Origin: a virus
Length of the DNA stretch: 22,602 bases
Reading direction: 5' to 3' (one strand)
IMG/VR virus record: IMGVR_UViG_3300046471_000056
Location: 1 to 22,602 of that record
The notes under the pieces were generated by a model that saw only the letters and a list, made by a program, of their open reading frames with translations, searched no databases and was not told the DNA's origin. Positions 4,437 through 13,524 of the stretch are shown in pieces. Positions within the stretch are counted from its first letter, which is position 1, and each line of letters starts with the position of its first letter. The translations under genes and the position numbers were made by a program.

Positions 4437-4753
4437 TTGAACCTCATCACAATGAGTCGCATCGAGCCCGAAGCCGTGTTGAATACGGTGGGCGAATTCC
4501 TCATCCAGTTCGCTACCTCGACCACACCGTTTCCCACCAAGACTTCGAACTGTCGATCATTACTACCGTAGTTGCCTATGGGTATAACAACGGCATTCGC
4601 ATTGTCCGGCGTGCAGCCTGGTACTGAAAAACTTTGTACTCCGCGTTCAATGCCGAAGCTGACTACCTGAGACAGCACTACTCGAATCGTAAAAGAGTTT
4701 TCGTCCAGTTGCAGGGCGCCATCGGCGCCCCACACTCTCATTCCATAAGCCAT
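4433..4753 (-). CDS. Small tail-tip-associated protein after J
   Basis: 106 residues starting at ATG 4753 (a GTG one codon earlier is possible), with a GGGGTGAG ribosome binding site that overlaps the J stop. The N terminus MAYGMRVWGADGALQLDEN resembles the next protein downstream; the rest is beta-rich with no catalytic motif. Tight packing between J and its longer relative suggests co-expression with the tail tip. Likely a virion component or assembly partner; the exact role is unknown. Confidence 0.72.
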   Translation of the reverse strand: MAYGMRVWGADGALQLDENSFTIRVVLSQVVSFGIERGVQSFSVPGCTPDNANAVVIPIGNYGSNDRQFEVLVGNGVVEVANWMRNSPTVFNTASGSMRLIVMRFK

Positions 4754-4756
4754 CAC

Positions 4757-7700
4757 TCACCCCAAGTTGCCAAGCTGAACACGTAAGGTTCCGTTTTGGT
4801 CGTAGACCTTTACCCCAGCGCTGGTAATAACGATCCGACCGGCACCAGGCGTGTTGCCGTTCATTTCGAAGTAACCAGTTTTCGATATCGCCCATCCCGT
4901 CTGGCCTGAAACCCAGTTATTCGACTGGATCACTTCCCCAATCTTTGCATTGGTGATAGAGCCGTCTTGAATGAACGCATCGCTGATGAAGGTCTGTCCG
5001 TTGACCACCGCAAACGGGGCAGTCAAAACATTGCCCGCCACGGTGTTGAGCACGGCAAACCGGTCGGCACTGACAACGAACGATGATTGTAAGGCGCCAG
5101 AGCTGTTATCCAGCCCAAGGCCGAACCCGGCCGCGTAATACTGGCCACCAGAAGACAGGGCCAATCGCACGCTGTATGAAGAAGCAATTTTGTTGGCCGA
5201 GTCCGCGATCGTTGTTGCCTGCTGCTGCAATTGAGCAGTGTTCCCGCCGACCGAGCTTTGCAGGCTTACGATTTGCTGGGACTGCGACGTCTGCGTTGCG
5301 CCCTGCGTGGTGACAGTCGATGTCAGCGACTGTAATGCTCGGCTCGATGCGGCAGGCCCGACACGACCGACAGCAATCCAGTCGATATCGAATGCGCTAC
5401 CGCTTACAAGTCCAAGATCGACACGCAAGGCCGTGATGGTGCTGGACGTCCAGTCCGCTCCGCCTGCGGTGAGCGCCGCCATGTCAAACTCAAGGATGGT
5501 GCTTGCGCCAATAGCGAGGTTAGGGTTTGCTAGCACCTTGCGGAAAGATGCCGTAAAACCGTGCCCGCTGGTGGAGTAGAAGAACTGACCATCCCAGTCT
5601 GTTGCGGCGGCTCCAGCGCGGCGCGTGATGGACATCCGGACCTTCGTAAACAAGCCTCCGTTGATGGACAGGCCGGACACTTGGATGCTCGGATCGCCAG
5701 CAGTCGCGGTTTGGCGCATTACCCCAACTGACGGGAACGACAAGGTCGAGTTGTTGGCCGTCCAGCCCTCTGCCGTACTGTCAAAATTCCACGTTGCGTT
5801 CTCTGCCGGGTCAAGCCCAGAAGCGCCCAAGCTGCCCTGAATGGTCGACACCGACGTTTGAAGATCGGTGATGCTGGACGATTGCGCGGTGTTCACGCCC
5901 TCAGCGCTGGTTACCCGATTCGACAACGTCTGCAATGCAGCCGCGCTGGCCTTGGTCGCAAGCCCGTCCGTGGTGCTGTTCACCGCGTTTTCAAGCGTCG
6001 TAGTCCGCGCAGCAACGCTGGTCAGCGTGGTGCCCTGCTGGGTGACCGTAGACGAGAGCGAATCAACTGCCGCCGATGTCACCGCCTGCGCGTTGGTGAC
6101 AGCCTGCACCGACGGGCTGTAGGCGGTGGCAACAGAGCCTTCCTGAAGCTGCACGTTATCCAGCTCGATCCACATATCCGCAGTTGCGCCGGAGCGATTC
6201 AACAGACGTCCGGCGTATACATGCGCCTTGACGGCGCCAGCTGGGCACGTCGCGGTAAAATTGATCCGAGTGAACGTCGTTCCTACTTGCGTCTCCGCGA
6301 GTTGACTGGTTGAAACAACCACGCTGGCCGCGTTCATCCACTGGATGTACATGGCAAACCGAGCCGAGGAACTGGACAGCTTGGCATACACGCTCAGGGT
6401 GTACGCTTGCCCCTCTATGACTTTTGGCTGGTCAGCATCGGGGGTGTTCCAGTTCAGGTCTATGTACCCGCCGTTCGCCAAACCTGCGCGAGTTAGACGA
6501 ACGGCTTTGACGCTTGAACTCAGGGTCGAATCGACAAATGTCAATGTCGGCGTGGCGCCAGTGCTGCCGCCGACTCTCCAGTAAGTCGGGCGAGTTGTGT
6601 CTCCACTTGGCGTCTGCTCAAACGAGCTGTTCGGCAGCAAGTTGTCACCACCCATACTGCCGATGCTGTTGTTCAGTTGGGTAAGTTGACCGCTCACGCT
6701 GGTCAGTCCGGTCTCGGTCTGGGTGACCCGCCCCGTCAACGCGGTGGTGGCTGCAGCCTGGGCCGCGATGTCGGCTGAAGCCACCTTGCCACTGTCCTTC
6801 CAGCCACTTACGACAGGAGAGACTTCAAGTTGCGCACGGTCCACCTCTGCAAATCCAGCGGTAATCGAACCCGCCGAGTTTGGACGCACTCGAAGAAGTG
6901 GCGTTGTAACTACGGTCCCGGCGGGAAGTGCCGCACTGGTCAGTGAGACCCGCTGCCAACCATCGGTTAGCGTATTGACGCCCTGCGACGCGGTCGCCAA
7001 TACGGCCCCATTTGCATCCCGATGCTGCATAAACAGCTGAAACCCGAGCCCTGCCGTCCCTCTTACGCTGGTGGACAAGGTGATTACCTGACCGGCTGAT
7101 ACCGCTGGCCTATTAGTCACCACCGGGGTCAAGTCGGCATAGGTGCTGGTTGTCAGGCCTGACACATCGATCCGCTGTGACTTGCCAGAAGGATCGAGTG
7201 TGGAAGCAACTTGAGAGAAGACTGCCGACGGCCCCGCGGGGACAGTGCTCACCCAGCCATCAGCAATCGGCGAGCCTGCCGTCGCAAACCTGTCAAACGA
7301 TGGGTTGTACAGCAGGTTCTCACCACCAACGTTCGAAATGTTTGCGGTGATGTTGGTGATCGCATTCCCGGCCGCTGTCAGGTCAGTCCCCTGCTGGGTA
7401 ACTGTGTTGCTTAATGCCTGGACAGTTGCTGCCTCGGCCTTGGTTGCCACCTGCGCCAGAGCGCTCGCAGCCGCCGCCGCAGCATCCGTCGCGGCCTTGT
7501 CTGTAACCGCCGCCCACGCGCTCCCCGTCCAGCGCTTTGGGGTGTTCGCGTTGCCGGTGATGTCGATCCAGAGGTTCTGGGCCAACTGATCGGCAGCCGC
7601 CGGCGCAGCCGACTGAACGATGACCTTGCCTTTCCCGCCTGCCAGCGTGTTCGCCGCATTCGCAGCATTCTGCGCGGCGGTCACGTTCTGGTTTGTGGTC

Positions 7701-10700
7701 GTCAGGCTGCTGTTCAGACCGGTGATCGCCGTGCCTTGGCTGCTGAGGGTGCCCTCCGCGGTCGTGACTCGGGTCGTCAGGCTCTGGACAGCAGTGGACG
7801 ACGCTTTGCCATCCAGCGAGGTTTGCAGGCCAGTGATCTGGTTCGCCTGCGCCGTGTTCACACCCTCGATGCTGGTGATCTTGGTTTCAGCGGTGTTGAC
7901 GCGCGCGGCCAGGCCGTTCGCTGTCTGCACAGCCTGGCCAACGTTCAGCCAGTACGTGGCGTTCGGCGGTGCCGTGTTTTTCGGGACGTTCTGGGTCGCC
8001 TGATAGATGATCCCGTCAGCGCCGAGCACACCCTGCCCGGCGGTGTAAGTCTGGTCGGCCTTGTACGGCATCGAGTCGGCCAGATCCGCAATCTGATCAA
8101 TCTGGGCCTGAAGCTCGTTCTGCACTTCGGTCACGGTGTTGCTGACGTCGGTGATCTGGTCGCCCAGGTCGGTCCTTACCTGGTCAAGGCGTTCATTAAC
8201 CGAACCCGGGCCGTCACCGCCGATCTTGCCGATCTCCGACAGCAGCTCCTGACCCAGTTGGCTTTCCGTGATCTCGCCGACCAGATAATCGAGGATGTCA
8301 TCAGCATTGGAGCTCGCCTGACCGTTTACGAATCCGGGTGCGGTTGGGAACCATGGGCCGACGTTGCCGGTGCGGTCGACGAGGCGCGCCCAGAAGAAGA
8401 ACGATTGCCCTGCTTTCAGGCCCTGCATGGTGTAGTCGGATTGCGGGTAGGCCAGATCGGCCAGTTTGATCGCGCTATCCAGCTGCGGCGTTTGGCTGTA
8501 CCAGAGTTCAGTACGCTGGGTGTCCTCGGCTCCGGCTGGAAACGTCCATTTCAGACCGATACCGAAGATCAGGCTTTCAGTGGTCAGCGAAGTGACCGCC
8601 GGCGGCAATCCTTCCTTACCGTTCAGTTGTGTCAGGTTCGACGAGCGCCAGGTCGACGAAATGTCATAGGCGCTGACGGCGCGTACACGGGCCAAATAGC
8701 CGCCCGAATAAATACCGGTGATGTCGACACTGGTGCTACCGGTGCGCTGTACCTTGATCCAGTTACCGTTGTCCTTCCGCCATTCGACGTCGTACCCGAC
8801 CGCGCCGTTTACGGCAGGCCAGGTGATCGTCATCGTGGTGACGGCGATGCCCTGGTCAATCGCAGATGTTGCGGACAGCGTAACGCTGGCAGGGGCTGGA
8901 ACGACAGTGATCGGGATAACGCTGATCGGCCGGTCTTCGAGTTTTGCGCCGGTGTCGATGTATGCGAACTTGCTCGGCTCGTACTGGAGCGCGGAAATCT
9001 CGTAGTCGCCCTCGGTCGTGCGCTTGGTGCTCAGCACCCGGTAAAGCGGGATCGCAAGATCGTCAGCGTCAAGCGCCCACTGAAGTTGTGGGGTCGGAGT
9101 TTCGCTGTAGGCCGTGGTCACGGTAACCGCGCGTCCAGCCACTGACTGTACAGTGCGCCCTTCCGCCTTGCCGCTCGGCAGGTTGATGATCAGACGATCT
9201 CCGGCCTTGGCTTGAGTGTCACGATCCAGTGTCACAACGCGGCCAGCTGCAGCGGAGATACGTCCGCCGATTTCTCGGCCCGCAAGCAACGAGTCCGCAA
9301 CCGGAATGATGTAGCCAGGCAGCGGGATTGCACCTTCCATCCCGGTCTTGAACGTAACGGTGCGATCCTGGTTGTTGCTCATCACCGCCCACTTACCGCG
9401 GCGCTGCGCTTCCGACGCACGGGTGCAACCGATTGCGCTGATCTCGACCGGCTTGTCACCAAACCGACGCTGCAAAACCGAGTCGGCATAGGCCGTCACG
9501 TCGGTGTCGTAGTTGTTCGCTGGATTGTCGTAGCTGACTATCGCCCGGGTATAACGAGTCTGGGCGGAGGCGCTGCCATAGGAAAACTTGCCGTCGATGA
9601 CATTGGCACGCGTGAAGACGTAGTCGAAGTCTTGCGCGCGAGGCATGTCGGCCTGCATCACAAGTTGGCCTTGCGCCCAGTAGGTCATCCCACGGTATAT
9701 CGCCGAGATGTCGCGCAGCAGCGTCCAGGCCTCGGCCTTACCTTGCAGGTTCATATCGCAGAGAAAGCGCGGCTCTAGTCCGCCGATGCCATTCGGCACC
9801 AACTGATCACAGTACTGGGCGATTCGATAGAGCTCCCACTTGTCGACCATAAACGGCTTGATGCGCTTGCCCAGGCCGAAGCGGTCAACGGTGCAAATTC
9901 CAAACGTGACCCAAGCCGGGTTATTTGTCCACGCCTGCTTGAAAGTGCCATCCCACACGCCTGAATAGGTGCGCGCGACAGGATCATAGTTGCTCGGTAC
10001 CTGCCACTTACGCGCCTTGCACCGTGCGGTTACGACCGGAATGTTTGTGAACTGCTCGGCGTCGAACTCGATGTAGAGGAGTGCCGTGTTCGGGTAACGC
10101 AGTTTCGCGTCGATAACTTCTGTGTAGCCGGCGACCAGCATGGCATCGGCGATCTTGTTGGTGTTCTGGTTTGGCGTGATGCGGCGGACGCGGATCTGCC
10201 AGCCGGTCATAGCCGCTGGTAAATCGATGCGGCGCGACCGCTCATAACGGGTGGTCGTCTTGCCGTCGACCGCCTCGTCAAGGACCTGCTGGTAGGCGCC
10301 GCCGTCCGTGGCAACATCGACCGCGTATTCGATCCGGTAGCCACCCACGTTCCCATTTTCATCCTGCTGCTGAAGCGCAGGCCACGCAAAACGCACGCGC
10401 ACGGCTGAGAGCTGGGTATTGGTCAGCGAGCGCACCCAAGCCGTATCGCTGCGCAGCTCGACGTTGACAGTCGTTTCATTCTCGACCGATGGAATGCCTG
10501 GGATGTAGGACTGATCTACAGCCCCTGAGCGCCACTCCCATTTTACGTTCGGAAAATTAAGATTGCCGCTGGCATCTGCTATTGGTGTGCCGTCCAACTT
10601 AATGGTGGCATTGGTGGGCGCACCGTCGAATTCCCCCTCACCCACTGCGATCAGGAGCTTGGCCAAGTTAGTGGAGCGCAGGCTGTCTGTTGCCTCGATA

Positions 10701-10765
10701 GGCTGCTTTGGGTTGCTGCTGCCGCCCTTGGCGCCGGTAATCTCGATTTTTTCAGCTGCGCCCAT
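4757..10765 (-). CDS. J: Central tail tip / host specificity protein J
   Basis: 2002 residues starting at ATG 10765 behind GGAGGAAAGC. The first ~600 residues match the general build of lambda gpJ (GAKGGSSNPKQPIEATDSLR near the start; NNPAWVTFGICTVDRFGLG near 290), which forms the closed hub at the tail end. Two fibronectin type III-like domains follow (about 618-812), then long Thr/Ser/Gln-rich coiled-coil repeats of the SLTTRVTTAEG kind (about 850-1840). These are broken by three likely beta-sandwich, carbohydrate-binding-like insertions at about 1145-1323 (NLLYNPSFD), 1370-1550 (NLLPNSSFE) and 1648-1807. A DUF1983-like C-terminal region starts about 1841 (AGFGLGLD, SADRFAV). Lambda gpJ is 1132 residues, so this one is much enlarged. 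It determines receptor binding. A terminator lies just before its ribosome binding site. Confidence 0.93.
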   Translation of the reverse strand: MGAAEKIEITGAKGGSSNPKQPIEATDSLRSTNLAKLLIAVGEGEFDGAPTNATIKLDGTPIADASGNLNFPNVKWEWRSGAVDQSYIPGIPSVENETTVNVELRSDTAWVRSLTNTQLSAVRVRFAWPALQQQDENGNVGGYRIEYAVDVATDGGAYQQVLDEAVDGKTTTRYERSRRIDLPAAMTGWQIRVRRITPNQNTNKIADAMLVAGYTEVIDAKLRYPNTALLYIEFDAEQFTNIPVVTARCKARKWQVPSNYDPVARTYSGVWDGTFKQAWTNNPAWVTFGICTVDRFGLGKRIKPFMVDKWELYRIAQYCDQLVPNGIGGLEPRFLCDMNLQGKAEAWTLLRDISAIYRGMTYWAQGQLVMQADMPRAQDFDYVFTRANVIDGKFSYGSASAQTRYTRAIVSYDNPANNYDTDVTAYADSVLQRRFGDKPVEISAIGCTRASEAQRRGKWAVMSNNQDRTVTFKTGMEGAIPLPGYIIPVADSLLAGREIGGRISAAAGRVVTLDRDTQAKAGDRLIINLPSGKAEGRTVQSVAGRAVTVTTAYSETPTPQLQWALDADDLAIPLYRVLSTKRTTEGDYEISALQYEPSKFAYIDTGAKLEDRPISVIPITVVPAPASVTLSATSAIDQGIAVTTMTITWPAVNGAVGYDVEWRKDNGNWIKVQRTGSTSVDITGIYSGGYLARVRAVSAYDISSTWRSSNLTQLNGKEGLPPAVTSLTTESLIFGIGLKWTFPAGAEDTQRTELWYSQTPQLDSAIKLADLAYPQSDYTMQGLKAGQSFFFWARLVDRTGNVGPWFPTAPGFVNGQASSNADDILDYLVGEITESQLGQELLSEIGKIGGDGPGSVNERLDQVRTDLGDQITDVSNTVTEVQNELQAQIDQIADLADSMPYKADQTYTAGQGVLGADGIIYQATQNVPKNTAPPNATYWLNVGQAVQTANGLAARVNTAETKITSIEGVNTAQANQITGLQTSLDGKASSTAVQSLTTRVTTAEGTLSSQGTAITGLNSSLTTTNQNVTAAQNAANAANTLAGGKGKVIVQSAAPAAADQLAQNLWIDITGNANTPKRWTGSAWAAVTDKAATDAAAAAASALAQVATKAEAATVQALSNTVTQQGTDLTAAGNAITNITANISNVGGENLLYNPSFDRFATAGSPIADGWVSTVPAGPSAVFSQVASTLDPSGKSQRIDVSGLTTSTYADLTPVVTNRPAVSAGQVITLSTSVRGTAGLGFQLFMQHRDANGAVLATASQGVNTLTDGWQRVSLTSAALPAGTVVTTPLLRVRPNSAGSITAGFAEVDRAQLEVSPVVSGWKDSGKVASADIAAQAAATTALTGRVTQTETGLTSVSGQLTQLNNSIGSMGGDNLLPNSSFEQTPSGDTTRPTYWRVGGSTGATPTLTFVDSTLSSSVKAVRLTRAGLANGGYIDLNWNTPDADQPKVIEGQAYTLSVYAKLSSSSARFAMYIQWMNAASVVVSTSQLAETQVGTTFTRINFTATCPAGAVKAHVYAGRLLNRSGATADMWIELDNVQLQEGSVATAYSPSVQAVTNAQAVTSAAVDSLSSTVTQQGTTLTSVAARTTTLENAVNSTTDGLATKASAAALQTLSNRVTSAEGVNTAQSSSITDLQTSVSTIQGSLGASGLDPAENATWNFDSTAEGWTANNSTLSFPSVGVMRQTATAGDPSIQVSGLSINGGLFTKVRMSITRRAGAAATDWDGQFFYSTSGHGFTASFRKVLANPNLAIGASTILEFDMAALTAGGADWTSSTITALRVDLGLVSGSAFDIDWIAVGRVGPAASSRALQSLTSTVTTQGATQTSQSQQIVSLQSSVGGNTAQLQQQATTIADSANKIASSYSVRLALSSGGQYYAAGFGLGLDNSSGALQSSFVVSADRFAVLNTVAGNVLTAPFAVVNGQTFISDAFIQDGSITNAKIGEVIQSNNWVSGQTGWAISKTGYFEMNGNTPGAGRIVITSAGVKVYDQNGTLRVQLGNLG

Positions 10766-10781
10766 GCTTTCCTCCAGGCAT

Positions 10782-10802
10782 AAAAAAACCGCCAATCGGC
10801 GG
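10782..10802 (-). terminator. Intrinsic terminator between I and J
   Basis: On the minus strand, stem CCGCC/GGCGG (10798-10802 with 10789-10793), loop GATT, then seven T. The T run ends about 17 bases before the J start and runs almost directly into the J ribosome binding site. Confidence 0.7.
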
Positions 10803-10822: not shown

Positions 10823-11431
10823 TCACGTTTTGTCTTCGGCGTAGATCGAGGCGCTGATGATCGCCCCGCCCCAATCTCTCTCTCCGATGCAGATCGGGAC
10901 CGGGTTGCCGCTGGCGGTGGTGTTACGCGCGCTGCCGAAGGCATAGGACGGTAGGTTTTCCGGCGACGCACTTTGTCGGATGCCCGACGCCTGAGGGCTG
11001 AGCATTTGGATAACGCCGCCCGCTGTAGATGCGATGCCCCCAGCTATAAGTGCTGCGCCTTGTGCGGTCGTAGAGCCGTATGCAAAAAAACCGATGACAA
11101 TCAGCGCAACGCCCAAGATCGTCTGCAAGACCCCGGCTCGTTTGCTTCCGCTGATCACAGGAACAATCCGAATTTCGCGTGTGCCGCCAAGCTCGAGATC
11201 CTTTTCCCCGACATTTTTTCTGTTGCGGAAGATGGCGAATCTCATGCCAATACGGTCCAACCGTTTAATCTCTTCAGCAAACCCTTGAAGGGTTGCCTTC
11301 AGCGCCCGGAAAACCTCCAGCCCCTGGCCGCTGTCAATTTGGCGTTTATGGCTCCTGCCAAACTTTCTCGCAAGCGAGCCAGATAACAAGATTGTTGTCA
11401 TAGGACTGTAGTGAGCCGCTGTAGCTGCCAT
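10823..11431 (-). CDS. I: Tail assembly protein I
   Basis: 202 residues starting at ATG 11431 with GGAGTAAAA directly before it. A soluble N-terminal half (ETubiquitin-like in appearance, with FRALKATLQGF and the KDLELGG stretch) is followed by two adjacent hydrophobic segments (about 100-140: ILGVALIVIGFFAYG and AALIAGGIASTAGG) and a polar C terminus with GNPVPICIGERDWGGAIISA. This is the normal build of lambda gpI, needed for tail-tip assembly but absent from the finished virion. Order K-I-J is as in lambda, except that a two-gene cargo cassette separates K from I here. Confidence 0.88.
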   Translation of the reverse strand: MAATAAHYSPMTTILLSGSLARKFGRSHKRQIDSGQGLEVFRALKATLQGFAEEIKRLDRIGMRFAIFRNRKNVGEKDLELGGTREIRIVPVISGSKRAGVLQTILGVALIVIGFFAYGSTTAQGAALIAGGIASTAGGVIQMLSPQASGIRQSASPENLPSYAFGSARNTTASGNPVPICIGERDWGGAIISASIYAEDKT

Positions 11432-11482: not shown

Positions 11483-11884
11483 TTACATAGCTGTCGGAGA
11501 TATGTCAAACGCATCTCCGGAAAGAGTGATCCTGCGCCGCACTGACTCACCGGCACCGACCTCTACCTCGCGCTCAACCAGACCAAACCCGCCACAGGCG
11601 GCGCTCGGCTTCACTCCGAGAATATGCTTGCCGGGCTTCACCCCGAACTTCGCGACTTCCCCTGACGCAAATTCAGCCGCGAGAGTACCGTCTATGTAGA
11701 GTCGATAGTTGCAGCCTGATCCATAGAGACCGCTATCTCGAGTCACGACAACCTGGGCGTCAGCCTTGTTGCCGAAAGCGTACAGCCTCGATTGCGGCAC
11801 CGGATCGGCTTTGTCCGCAGAAATCGGGGATGTGGCACAGCCAGCCAGCAGCGAAACTGCCAACGCCCCTACCAGAATTCGCAT
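11483..11884 (-). CDS. Lipoprotein (moron), function unknown
   Basis: 133 residues. The signal peptide MRILVGALAVSLLAGC has lipobox LAGC and lipidated Cys 16; the next residues (ATSP) do not suggest inner-membrane retention, so outer membrane is likely. The mature domain looks like a compact beta-sandwich of PEGA-like type (YRLYIDGTLAAEF, VKPGKHILGV, VEREVEVGAGES). GAGGGA sits six bases before the ATG. It is divergent from the retropepsin-like gene with 178 bases between the two starts, and is closed by a strong terminator. No lambda tail counterpart exists at this position, so it is cargo. Superinfection exclusion or envelope modification in the lysogen is inferred from location and lipidation only. 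Confidence 0.78.
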   Translation of the reverse strand: MRILVGALAVSLLAGCATSPISADKADPVPQSRLYAFGNKADAQVVVTRDSGLYGSGCNYRLYIDGTLAAEFASGEVAKFGVKPGKHILGVKPSAACGGFGLVEREVEVGAGESVRRRITLSGDAFDISPTAM

Positions 11885-12062
11885 GATGATCCCTCATTGA
11901 GAAAGGGCCGAGGGTAGCACCGGGCTGTCTGCCCATCCAGTGTGGACAAAAGGCCAGTAACAGAACTGATACAGGCCGTAGTAGCTTTCCGACTTCAATG
12001 AACCGCCACGGTCCGTTGCCGGAAAGCCCATGGACCGGGGCAATATAACCTAGGAGGTCGAT

Positions 12063-12581
12063 GTGCCTTTTGATGCAACCGACAGTATGAAACACGCCCT
12101 GTCCAATGGTGCACCCATCTACTTTCTGAGACCGGACAACACGCTCTCAGCCACTCCTTGGGATCAAGGGTTGATCCCAGTCGTAAGAGTATCGATCCGC
12201 CCCGCCTATCTGCATGACAGATCCAGCTCCGATCCTTCCCTGGAATCCATTGACGCAATTGCGTTGATAGATACTGGCGCAGATTACGTATATATCGACG
12301 AGGATTTCGCTACTCGCTACAACTTTCAATCGGACAGCACCATGGACGTGCAAGGCGCCACTGGCACCACGCACCAGAAGGTCCATCCAGCTCTCTTTAA
12401 GCTCGTCGAAGAAACGAATCACCCCACAATGGCCGCAGAGTTCACCTCAGCTCCTTTGAGACGTAATGGGAGGCGGTACGACATAGTTCTCGGGATGCGC
12501 CTTTTGTCAAATGGGGTGCTGGTGATGGATTTCGACTCTGGTGTTTACCGTTTCGAATTCACAGGTCAGCCCAATAAATAA
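12063..12581 (+). CDS. Retropepsin-like aspartic protease (moron)
   Basis: 172 residues starting with GTG at 12063; AGGAGG at 12052-12057 gives ideal spacing, while the ATG two bases earlier opens only a very short frame. Hallmarks of a single-lobe retroviral-type aspartic protease are present: hydrophobic strand then D70-T71-G72-A73 (AIALIDTGADYVYID), a glycine-bearing flap-like stretch (VQGATGTT, about 97-103), and the second hydrophobic-Gly element IVLGMRLL (141-148) followed by GVLVMDF. Such proteins work as homodimers with one Asp per chain. No signal peptide or membrane span, so probably cytoplasmic. It lies on the plus strand inside the tail operon, divergent from a lipoprotein gene. 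Substrate unknown. Confidence 0.78.
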   Translation: MPFDATDSMKHALSNGAPIYFLRPDNTLSATPWDQGLIPVVRVSIRPAYLHDRSSSDPSLESIDAIALIDTGADYVYIDEDFATRYNFQSDSTMDVQGATGTTHQKVHPALFKLVEETNHPTMAAEFTSAPLRRNGRRYDIVLGMRLLSNGVLVMDFDSGVYRFEFTGQPNK

Positions 12582-12746
12582 AAGATCCCGGGGATCCCGT
12601 GGCCCGCATTGGCGCAACCGGATTACCTCGCGTTGATCCCATCGCACATCCATTGCGGGCGGCACTGTAGTGGTACTCGATGTGTGATTAACTCGAGTTT
12701 CTAGCCTGCTTGCCGCAGTGATTTCAGCCTTGCAGAGATCAAGCAT
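12507..12746 (-). CDS. Possible small protein overlapping K and antisense to the protease 3' end
   Basis: 79 residues from ATG 12746, which has a very good AGGAGG ribosome binding site at normal spacing and overlaps the end of K by 8 bases, as real genes do in this operon. The first ~55 residues look protein-like (MLDLCKAEITAASRLE, VRWDQREVIRLRQCG). The last ~25 are translated from the strand opposite the protease gene and look like a chance read-through, so the original stop may have been lost when the cargo cassette was inserted. A terminator hairpin also lies inside this frame. It may be a truncated relic. Confidence 0.4.
   Translation of the reverse strand: MLDLCKAEITAASRLETRVNHTSSTTTVPPAMDVRWDQREVIRLRQCGPRDPRDLLFIGLTCEFETVNTRVEIHHQHPI
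12575..12596 (-). terminator. Probable minus-strand terminator at the edge of the cargo cassette
   Basis: On the minus strand, stem GATCC/GGATC with loop CCG is followed by TTTTATTTATT. It lies after K and directly beside the stop codon of the plus-strand protease, so it would stop tail-operon transcription before the cassette. Confidence 0.5.
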
Positions 12747-13524
12747 GTGCCCCTCCTGCATCATCGCAGCATTTAGAATCCTTGTGCCTGAGGATCAGGC
12801 GTGTCCTGTCATGCCAGGGGCCGCCGAAGACAATGACCTCGGACGGCTTGCCGTACATGTGGTGAAGCAGGAACGGTCCGGCGCCGTGTACTGCCGTTGG
12901 CTCTTCCGGCAGGTTTGGATCGGCGCCGAGATAAATACCAGCATGGTTAGGATGCCTGGTGCGCCCCACTTCCATTACGATCATGTCGCCGCGCTGTGGT
13001 GAACCGACGCTCTCAAAGCCGGCCGCCTCGTAGGCCTGCTCGTACAGGCTCGGCCCATCGGCATGCTCCCACCAACCGTCCTCACGCTTGAAGGCATCGA
13101 ACTCCAGCCCCCATTCGCGCTTATACCAGTCAGCGCAAACCTGCCAGCAGTCCCAAGCGCCATGCACGAAGGGACGCCCTAGCAGCGGCGTGTGACCGGT
13201 GGGCAAGATGGTGCGCAGATCACCTTCCGGCCAGCTCAGAATGTGCCAGGGCAGCTCGGTCGCCTCACACATCGCGAGATCGCGCGGTGACGGCCTGCTG
13301 GTCGCGTCCGGATGCGAGTGAACGATGCCGATCACCTCGCCCTCGTCTTCAGCCGAGGCGTAATCGTCTGGGGTAATCCGGAACTCTTCGTTCGGGTCGG
13401 TTGCGGTGTTCGGGCACGGGATGTACTTCTGCTTGCGCCCAATGCTGATCAGCACGCCACAGCATTCGCGCGGATACTCCGCGGCGGCATGTGTCTGCAC
13501 CGCTTTAAGGATGTGCTTCAGCAT
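12739..13524 (-). CDS. K: Tail assembly protein K: JAMM peptidase plus NlpC/P60 hydrolase
   Basis: 261 residues from ATG 13524, with CGGAG at good spacing. The N-terminal Mov34/MPN domain carries an intact JAMM zinc site: E20 in PRECCG, H69 and H71 in HSHP, S79 and D82. The C-terminal NlpC/P60 domain has C126 in AWDCWQVC and H194 in NHAGIYLG, with H213 a candidate for the third residue. This fusion is the standard form of lambda gpK, which is needed for tail-tip maturation and is thought to cut peptidoglycan or process tip proteins. Placed between L and the cargo cassette. Both catalytic sets look functional. Confidence 0.92.
   Translation of the reverse strand: MLKHILKAVQTHAAAEYPRECCGVLISIGRKQKYIPCPNTATDPNEEFRITPDDYASAEDEGEVIGIVHSHPDATSRPSPRDLAMCEATELPWHILSWPEGDLRTILPTGHTPLLGRPFVHGAWDCWQVCADWYKREWGLEFDAFKREDGWWEHADGPSLYEQAYEAAGFESVGSPQRGDMIVMEVGRTRHPNHAGIYLGADPNLPEEPTAVHGAGPFLLHHMYGKPSEVIVFGGPWHDRTRLILRHKDSKCCDDAGGAHA

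Follow-up and report, generated by a model that had tools for sequence, protein, structure and literature searches.

The DNA analysed here (the window) is the whole 22,602-base stretch of a virus record, and it carries a lambda-like late region in which the genes for tape measure, M, L, K, lipoprotein, I and J lie on the minus strand. It is a fragment of a Pseudomonas-type siphophage prophage; its tail genes resemble those of Pseudomonas phages, the best match being Medea1 (77% identity). On the plus strand, the gap between K and the lipoprotein gene holds a single sizeable gene, which is preceded by a leader and met at its 3′ end by a small ORF of the late strand. The features are as follows.

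12063-12581, plus strand: retropepsin-like aspartic protease gene, by sequence and predicted fold (Pfam, family alignment, AlphaFold model, pN/pS)
11963-12062, plus strand: leader common to Pseudomonas cargo genes (covariance model R1, recurrence, G-U:A-C cells)
12507-12746, minus strand: small late-strand ORF convergent with the protease gene, 79 aa counted from the ATG at 12746 (class-1 similarity, constraint, linkage)
12739-13524, minus strand: lambda K-like tail assembly protein with JAB and NlpC/P60 domains (PF14464, PF00877, phrog_30)
11483-11884, minus strand: phage lipoprotein gene on the far side of the cargo slot (phrog_890, E=9e-35)
10823-11431, minus strand: tail assembly protein I (phrog_32, E=3.5e-63)
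4757-10795, minus strand: tail tip/host specificity protein J (PF24801, PF09327)

The ORF at 12063-12581 consists of 172 codons, begins with GTG and is preceded by a Shine-Dalgarno sequence, AGGAGG, at 12052-12057, 5 bases upstream of the start codon. An earlier sequence-only reading of this DNA had picked out the same ORF, antisense within the tail operon, as a retropepsin-like aspartic protease, and both its position and its main landmarks hold: K, the lipoprotein gene, I and J are all on the minus strand, the catalytic motif D70-T71-G72-A73 (encoded at about 12270-12281) directly follows the hydrophobic strand AIALI, and the second element, IVLGM, occupies residues 141-145 (about 12483-12497). 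The N-terminus, as read from sequence, contains no hydrophobic segment and no apparent signal sequence. A search for a protease promoter found no match to the sigma-70 consensus, and none was found when a plus-strand terminator was looked for 3′ of the gene. On the minus strand, a terminator-like hairpin with a T-run lies at 12582-12598, just beyond the protease stop and within the late operon.

Profile searches agree with the proposed family. PF13650 (Asp_protease_2) matches with E=1.8e-5 and 25.8 bits, above its curated cut-off of 24.3, and PF13975 (gag-asp_proteas) with E=1.1e-5 and 26.3 bits, just below its cut-off of 28.2. Among 33 distinct aligned relatives, residues A67, L68, D70, T71, G72, A73, G144 and G151 are invariant and the catalytic motif reads A-L-[IL]-D-T-G-A; a further relative outside this set (L098) has DTGC in place of DTGA. 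The AlphaFold model, based on an alignment of 30 sequences, has a pLDDT of 88 and a pTM of 0.84. Foldseek ranks retroviral proteases, Ddi1 and APRc highest among PDB entries (prob 1.00), and structural superpositions give Z of 9-11 and rmsd of 2.0-4 Å over 96-118 residues, with VIA-align Z of 10.7 for human Ddi (4rgh), 10.0 for Rickettsia APRc (5c9f) and about 9 for HIV protease. The viral structure library likewise contains other phage proteins that carry an acid or retropepsin-like protease annotation, and a search of solved structures by protease sequence alone gave no match. The predicted fold is therefore that of a single-lobe acid protease, as the sequence-only reading had anticipated. 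That reading had also counted a flap-like Gly stretch among the landmarks. The model does predict a β-hairpin (92-97/102-114) where the flap belongs, but Gly98 varies among relatives, many of which have VHSAAAT or VYSAAAT at this position, and as judged from the alignment it is no landmark of the family. Taken together, sequence and predicted fold identify the ORF as a retropepsin-like aspartic protease.

Antisense ORFs abound in GC-rich late operons, and the composition of this one departs from that of the operon (51.6% GC compared with 58.7% for the window), which would fit a spurious antisense ORF or a decayed pseudogene. Against this stand the profile match, the existence of about 50 relatives, the invariant catalytic motif and a pN/pS of 0.25-0.37 in four sub-groups, together with the dedicated leader and Shine-Dalgarno sequence. 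The relatives evolve under purifying selection, and the profile scores, the motif and the pN/pS values exclude a chance ORF, making a spurious or decayed gene extremely improbable.

The first relative, 54% identical to the window protease, came from IMG/VR, and a search with an alignment that included two Enterobacter plasmid relatives yielded 50 viral loci and three cellular contigs. The sources are Pseudomonas and enterobacterial prophages. Within sequenced genomes, the protease is carried by 7 of 399 from Pseudomonas and by 2 of 295 from the family of Pluralibacter; no match was obtained in the E. coli genomes searched, nor in genome contigs searched with the single protease protein. PHROG likewise returned no confident match for the protease. 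The view that such enzymes are uncommon as phage cargo is thus borne out, with no tblastn match in 50,697 phage records and relatives in about 50 of 2.9 million IMG/VR contigs.

The antisense position had been considered unusual, and this part of the sequence-only reading did not survive comparison. In all 52 loci, the coding bases within 4 kb of the protease are mostly antisense to it, and late-strand genes occur on both flanks in 48 of the 52, with neighbouring genes called by a simple script and then clustered. Seven relative regions fetched later are again antisense amid phage genes, and a published account gives an antisense position relative to lytic genes as a characteristic feature of moron loci (PMC7067206). 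The position is therefore regular rather than odd. The sites themselves differ: in many Pseudomonas phages the gene lies between K and lipoprotein-I, in enterobacterial ones between L and M or between J and I, and further copies occupy the lysis-terminase region, head genes, or the junction of tail chaperone and tape measure (L057, L113). The constancy of orientation across unrelated sites suggests that orientation matters.

Many phages use maturation proteases, and the location of the gene among tail genes could be taken to indicate an enzyme for processing a tail or head protein in virion assembly. However, the gene runs antisense to the structural operon, occurs sporadically and is absent from close tail relatives, and its neighbours vary from phage to phage (tail, head, terminase or lysis genes). 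We rejected a virion maturation role on the basis of position and sporadic presence, and regard it as very improbable.

Several other cargo genes were found near the protease relatives. A divergent HEPN_AbiU2 gene with an RNKRIAH motif adjoins the retropepsin gene in L002 (4146-4778, minus strand), L018 (7180-7812, minus strand) and L019. In L030, a TIR_2-domain protein is encoded at 4688-5479 on the plus strand, about 1.6 kb upstream of the retropepsin relative and on the same strand, antisense to the late operon; a TIR_2-like gene also adjoins the protease copy of L098. A zeta-toxin gene with a 64-codon partner lies beside the retropepsin gene in L049 (4716-5638, minus strand) and L052 (6810-7732, minus strand), the pair being nearly identical in the two loci while their surroundings otherwise differ. 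L013 has a NucS-like nuclease gene, and cargo without a defence character is represented by genes for Kdo kinase (L016) and glyoxalase (L056).

The 100 nt upstream of the window protease start are common to most Pseudomonas relatives. This leader contains a hairpin with the consensus CCCCRGTCC..GGACYGGGG plus GACCTAGGAGGTC around the Shine-Dalgarno sequence; in the window, the hairpin arms are at 12006-12014 and 12032-12040, with one A.G mismatch, and the palindrome ACCTAGGAGGT surrounds the Shine-Dalgarno sequence at 12048-12058. Using the covariance model R1, we found that the leader ends on or near the protease start codon in the window and in most Pseudomonas relatives. The window match ends on the start codon and spans 103 positions including GTG with 106.9 bits, a score to be read with the window copy, like several other R1 matches, being a member of the training alignment. 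R1 found no leader in the enterobacterial relatives, and Rfam gave no match in the window or the leader loci. For the hairpin and the Shine-Dalgarno palindrome read on the plus strand, G-U and A-C cells number 47:5, as counted on the alignment from which the structure itself was read. Since a structure on the opposite strand would give the reverse ratio, the large excess of G-U over A-C suggests that the leader folds as RNA on the cargo strand. Covariation of the classical kind is weak in the hairpin, its score being reached by 54 of 500 shuffles. Two other candidates in this region were discarded, namely, a minus-strand peptide (MGFPATDRGGSLEVQ...) as a gene, because length differences of 1 nt between relatives break its frame, and a long-range anti-Shine-Dalgarno pairing of CACCTCC with GGAGGT, because several leaders lack the 5′ part.

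The leader is not confined to the protease. A 27-nt leader pattern occurs in 89 IMG/VR stretches, and in 71 of the 80 that were followed up (L129-L208) an ORF with a Shine-Dalgarno sequence starts less than 50 nt past the pattern, usually 22-25 nt. These ORFs form about 18 unrelated clusters of small cargo families from Pseudomonas prophages. Similarly, 99 Pseudomonas genomes were scanned with R1 and 19 gave a leader match, and in two genomes without the protease the leader lies ahead of other small genes that run antisense within late regions of phages.

At its other end, the protease gene is overlapped over its last 75 nt by the small convergent ORF, which in the window starts at the K stop codon and has its first ATG at 12764. 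This ORF shares about 34-47% identity with its class-1 counterparts beside 13 other protease genes. Class-1 partners, from Pseudomonas, are 68-90 codons long, typically overlap the protease gene by about 35-45 nt and have a pN/pS of 0.25 outside the overlap. A class-1 scan returned 16 loci, all 16 with the protease; 13 of these are contigs already known for the protease, and the remaining three (L105, L112, L113) proved to have it as well. Because the pair lies away from K in L113 and L057, at the tail chaperone-tape measure site, adjacency to K is not a fixed property of the small gene. The enterobacterial partner is a different 53-codon ORF (WP_023303625.1) without demonstrable homology to the Pseudomonas ones. 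In enterobacterial phages the two genes form a cassette that is 92-98% conserved from about −131 relative to the protease start to +144 relative to its stop, where the partner ORF begins, amid differing flanks. The enterobacterial partner accompanies the protease in 24 of 26 loci. The other two loci (L066 and L069, about 2501-2691, at the lysis-terminase junction) retain the enterobacterial partner together with only 14 codons from the 3′ end of the protease gene, a remnant that is a deletion scar. In L055, L056 and L057 the partner ORF is a mosaic, with a class-1 N-terminus and a class-2 C-terminus (SPSKGDKYLS) joined near the protease overlap.

These observations bear on a scenario where the two genes form a self-immunised module. 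The protease would be anti-phage or toxic and harmful to the prophage's own lytic cycle, the partner would act as an inhibitor or decoy substrate, and late transcription would silence the protease. Such an arrangement is consistent with a partner that overlaps the 3′ end of the protease gene and moves with it, with the conserved cassette, with the constraint on class-1 partners and with the orientation kept across loci. It is opposed by the lack of demonstrable homology between the partners in the two host groups, by the class-1 partner being predicted to be unfolded when modelled alone (pLDDT 50, which leaves the model uninformative) and by a few protease loci that have no clear partner, such as L047, or a partner without overlap, as in L052. 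On balance we consider this scenario unlikely, if worth keeping in sight.

Morons are described as single genes of deviating composition inserted between conserved neighbours (PMC4378225). The window protease is such an extra gene, placed between the conserved K and lipoprotein-I and absent from the related Medea1, whose slot is filled by an HTH regulator and a Rha antirepressor, and its GC content deviates as noted above. Accordingly, the gene is very probably a real moron of the retropepsin family. We infer the following course of action. As foreign cargo with its own leader, set antisense in a slot of the late operon, the gene would be expressed during lysogeny, when the late genes are silent. 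Its product would be a cytoplasmic single-lobe enzyme of retropepsin fold, active as a homodimer with one D-T-G per subunit, and upon prophage induction the converging late transcription would switch it off. The lysogen would benefit, most probably through cleavage either of a protein of an incoming phage, providing superinfection immunity, or of a host protein, amounting to lysogenic conversion.

In favour of the first of these targets, the neighbouring cargo includes HEPN_AbiU2, TIR_2, zeta-toxin and NucS-like genes. The protease itself matches no model of known anti-phage defence systems in PADLOC, its putative link to defence is one of neighbourhood only, and the Kdo kinase and glyoxalase neighbours indicate that the slots are not defence-specific. 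An anti-phage role of the protease, taken alone, is accordingly no more than tentatively proposed. Alternatively, the protease may act on a host protein, such as a surface receptor, a regulator or, as with RimB, a ribosomal protein, in a manner unrelated to defence. The same Kdo kinase and glyoxalase genes housed in the slot speak for this option, as do the bacterial retropepsins RimB and RloA, which act on host physiology (PMC12239564). Yet the protease has no match to the RimB family and, unlike RloA, no apparent signal sequence, and several of its neighbours are defence-like. Lysogenic conversion of this kind is a real possibility, though we would stop short of calling it probable. The most elaborate proposal is a portable prophage immunity module, in which a retropepsin made by the lysogen, a shared RNA leader and an overlapping late protein that disarms the protease during the prophage's own lytic cycle would travel together. 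We consider it distinctly improbable as a whole; if true, it would represent an immunity factor of the HIV-protease fold with built-in self-immunity.

The best-known retropepsins are the retroviral ones, along with a few bacterial regulators. The class of the protein is known, and the Enterobacter relatives are entered in RefSeq under the name retropepsin-like aspartic protease. Literature searches on retropepsins in prophages or bacteriophages and on aspartic proteases in phage defence or superinfection, whose scope left out many subscription journals, found no paper on a phage-borne family; what appears to be new is the cassette of two convergent genes, together with the leader shared among cargo genes. 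With a retropepsin recognised as mobile cargo with an overlapping partner, protection of the lysogen and switch-off by the partner become testable, and the leader offers a sequence handle for listing Pseudomonas prophage cargo genes that are hard to recognise by sequence alone.

Compared with known systems, the window protein shares with the clan AA families PF13650 and PF13975 the profile over residues 67-149, the D-T-G motif, the second hydrophobic-Gly element and the predicted fold, but it is highly diverged, extends by about 60 N-terminal residues beyond the profile and is mobile phage cargo. It has a predicted fold in common with the retroviral-protease-like domain of Ddi1, Rickettsia conorii APRc and HIV-1 protease at 12-22% identity, whereas those proteins come from eukaryotic, rickettsial and retroviral settings and are known homodimers and active enzymes. 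RimB and RloA are retropepsin-like enzymes of Pseudomonas, the same genus as the host (PMC12239564). They are chromosomal, RloA being secreted, and their type is defined by an operon with an ATP-grasp partner and, in RloA, a signal peptide (PMC12239564); the window protease has no ATP-grasp operon partner and no RloA-like signal peptide, and its Pfam matches do not include their family. WP_023330226.1, annotated as a retropepsin-like aspartic protease, from Enterobacter phage-plasmids (L003, L004), belongs to the same family (37% identity) and is likewise antisense in a phage late operon, but differs in hosts, insertion sites and partner ORF, with no shared leader detected. Finally, the locus has in common with prophage moron loci (PMC7067206, PMC4378225) a single gene with its own leader and deviating GC content, antisense to lytic genes, and differs from them in that its cargo is a predicted protease with an overlapping convergent partner gene.
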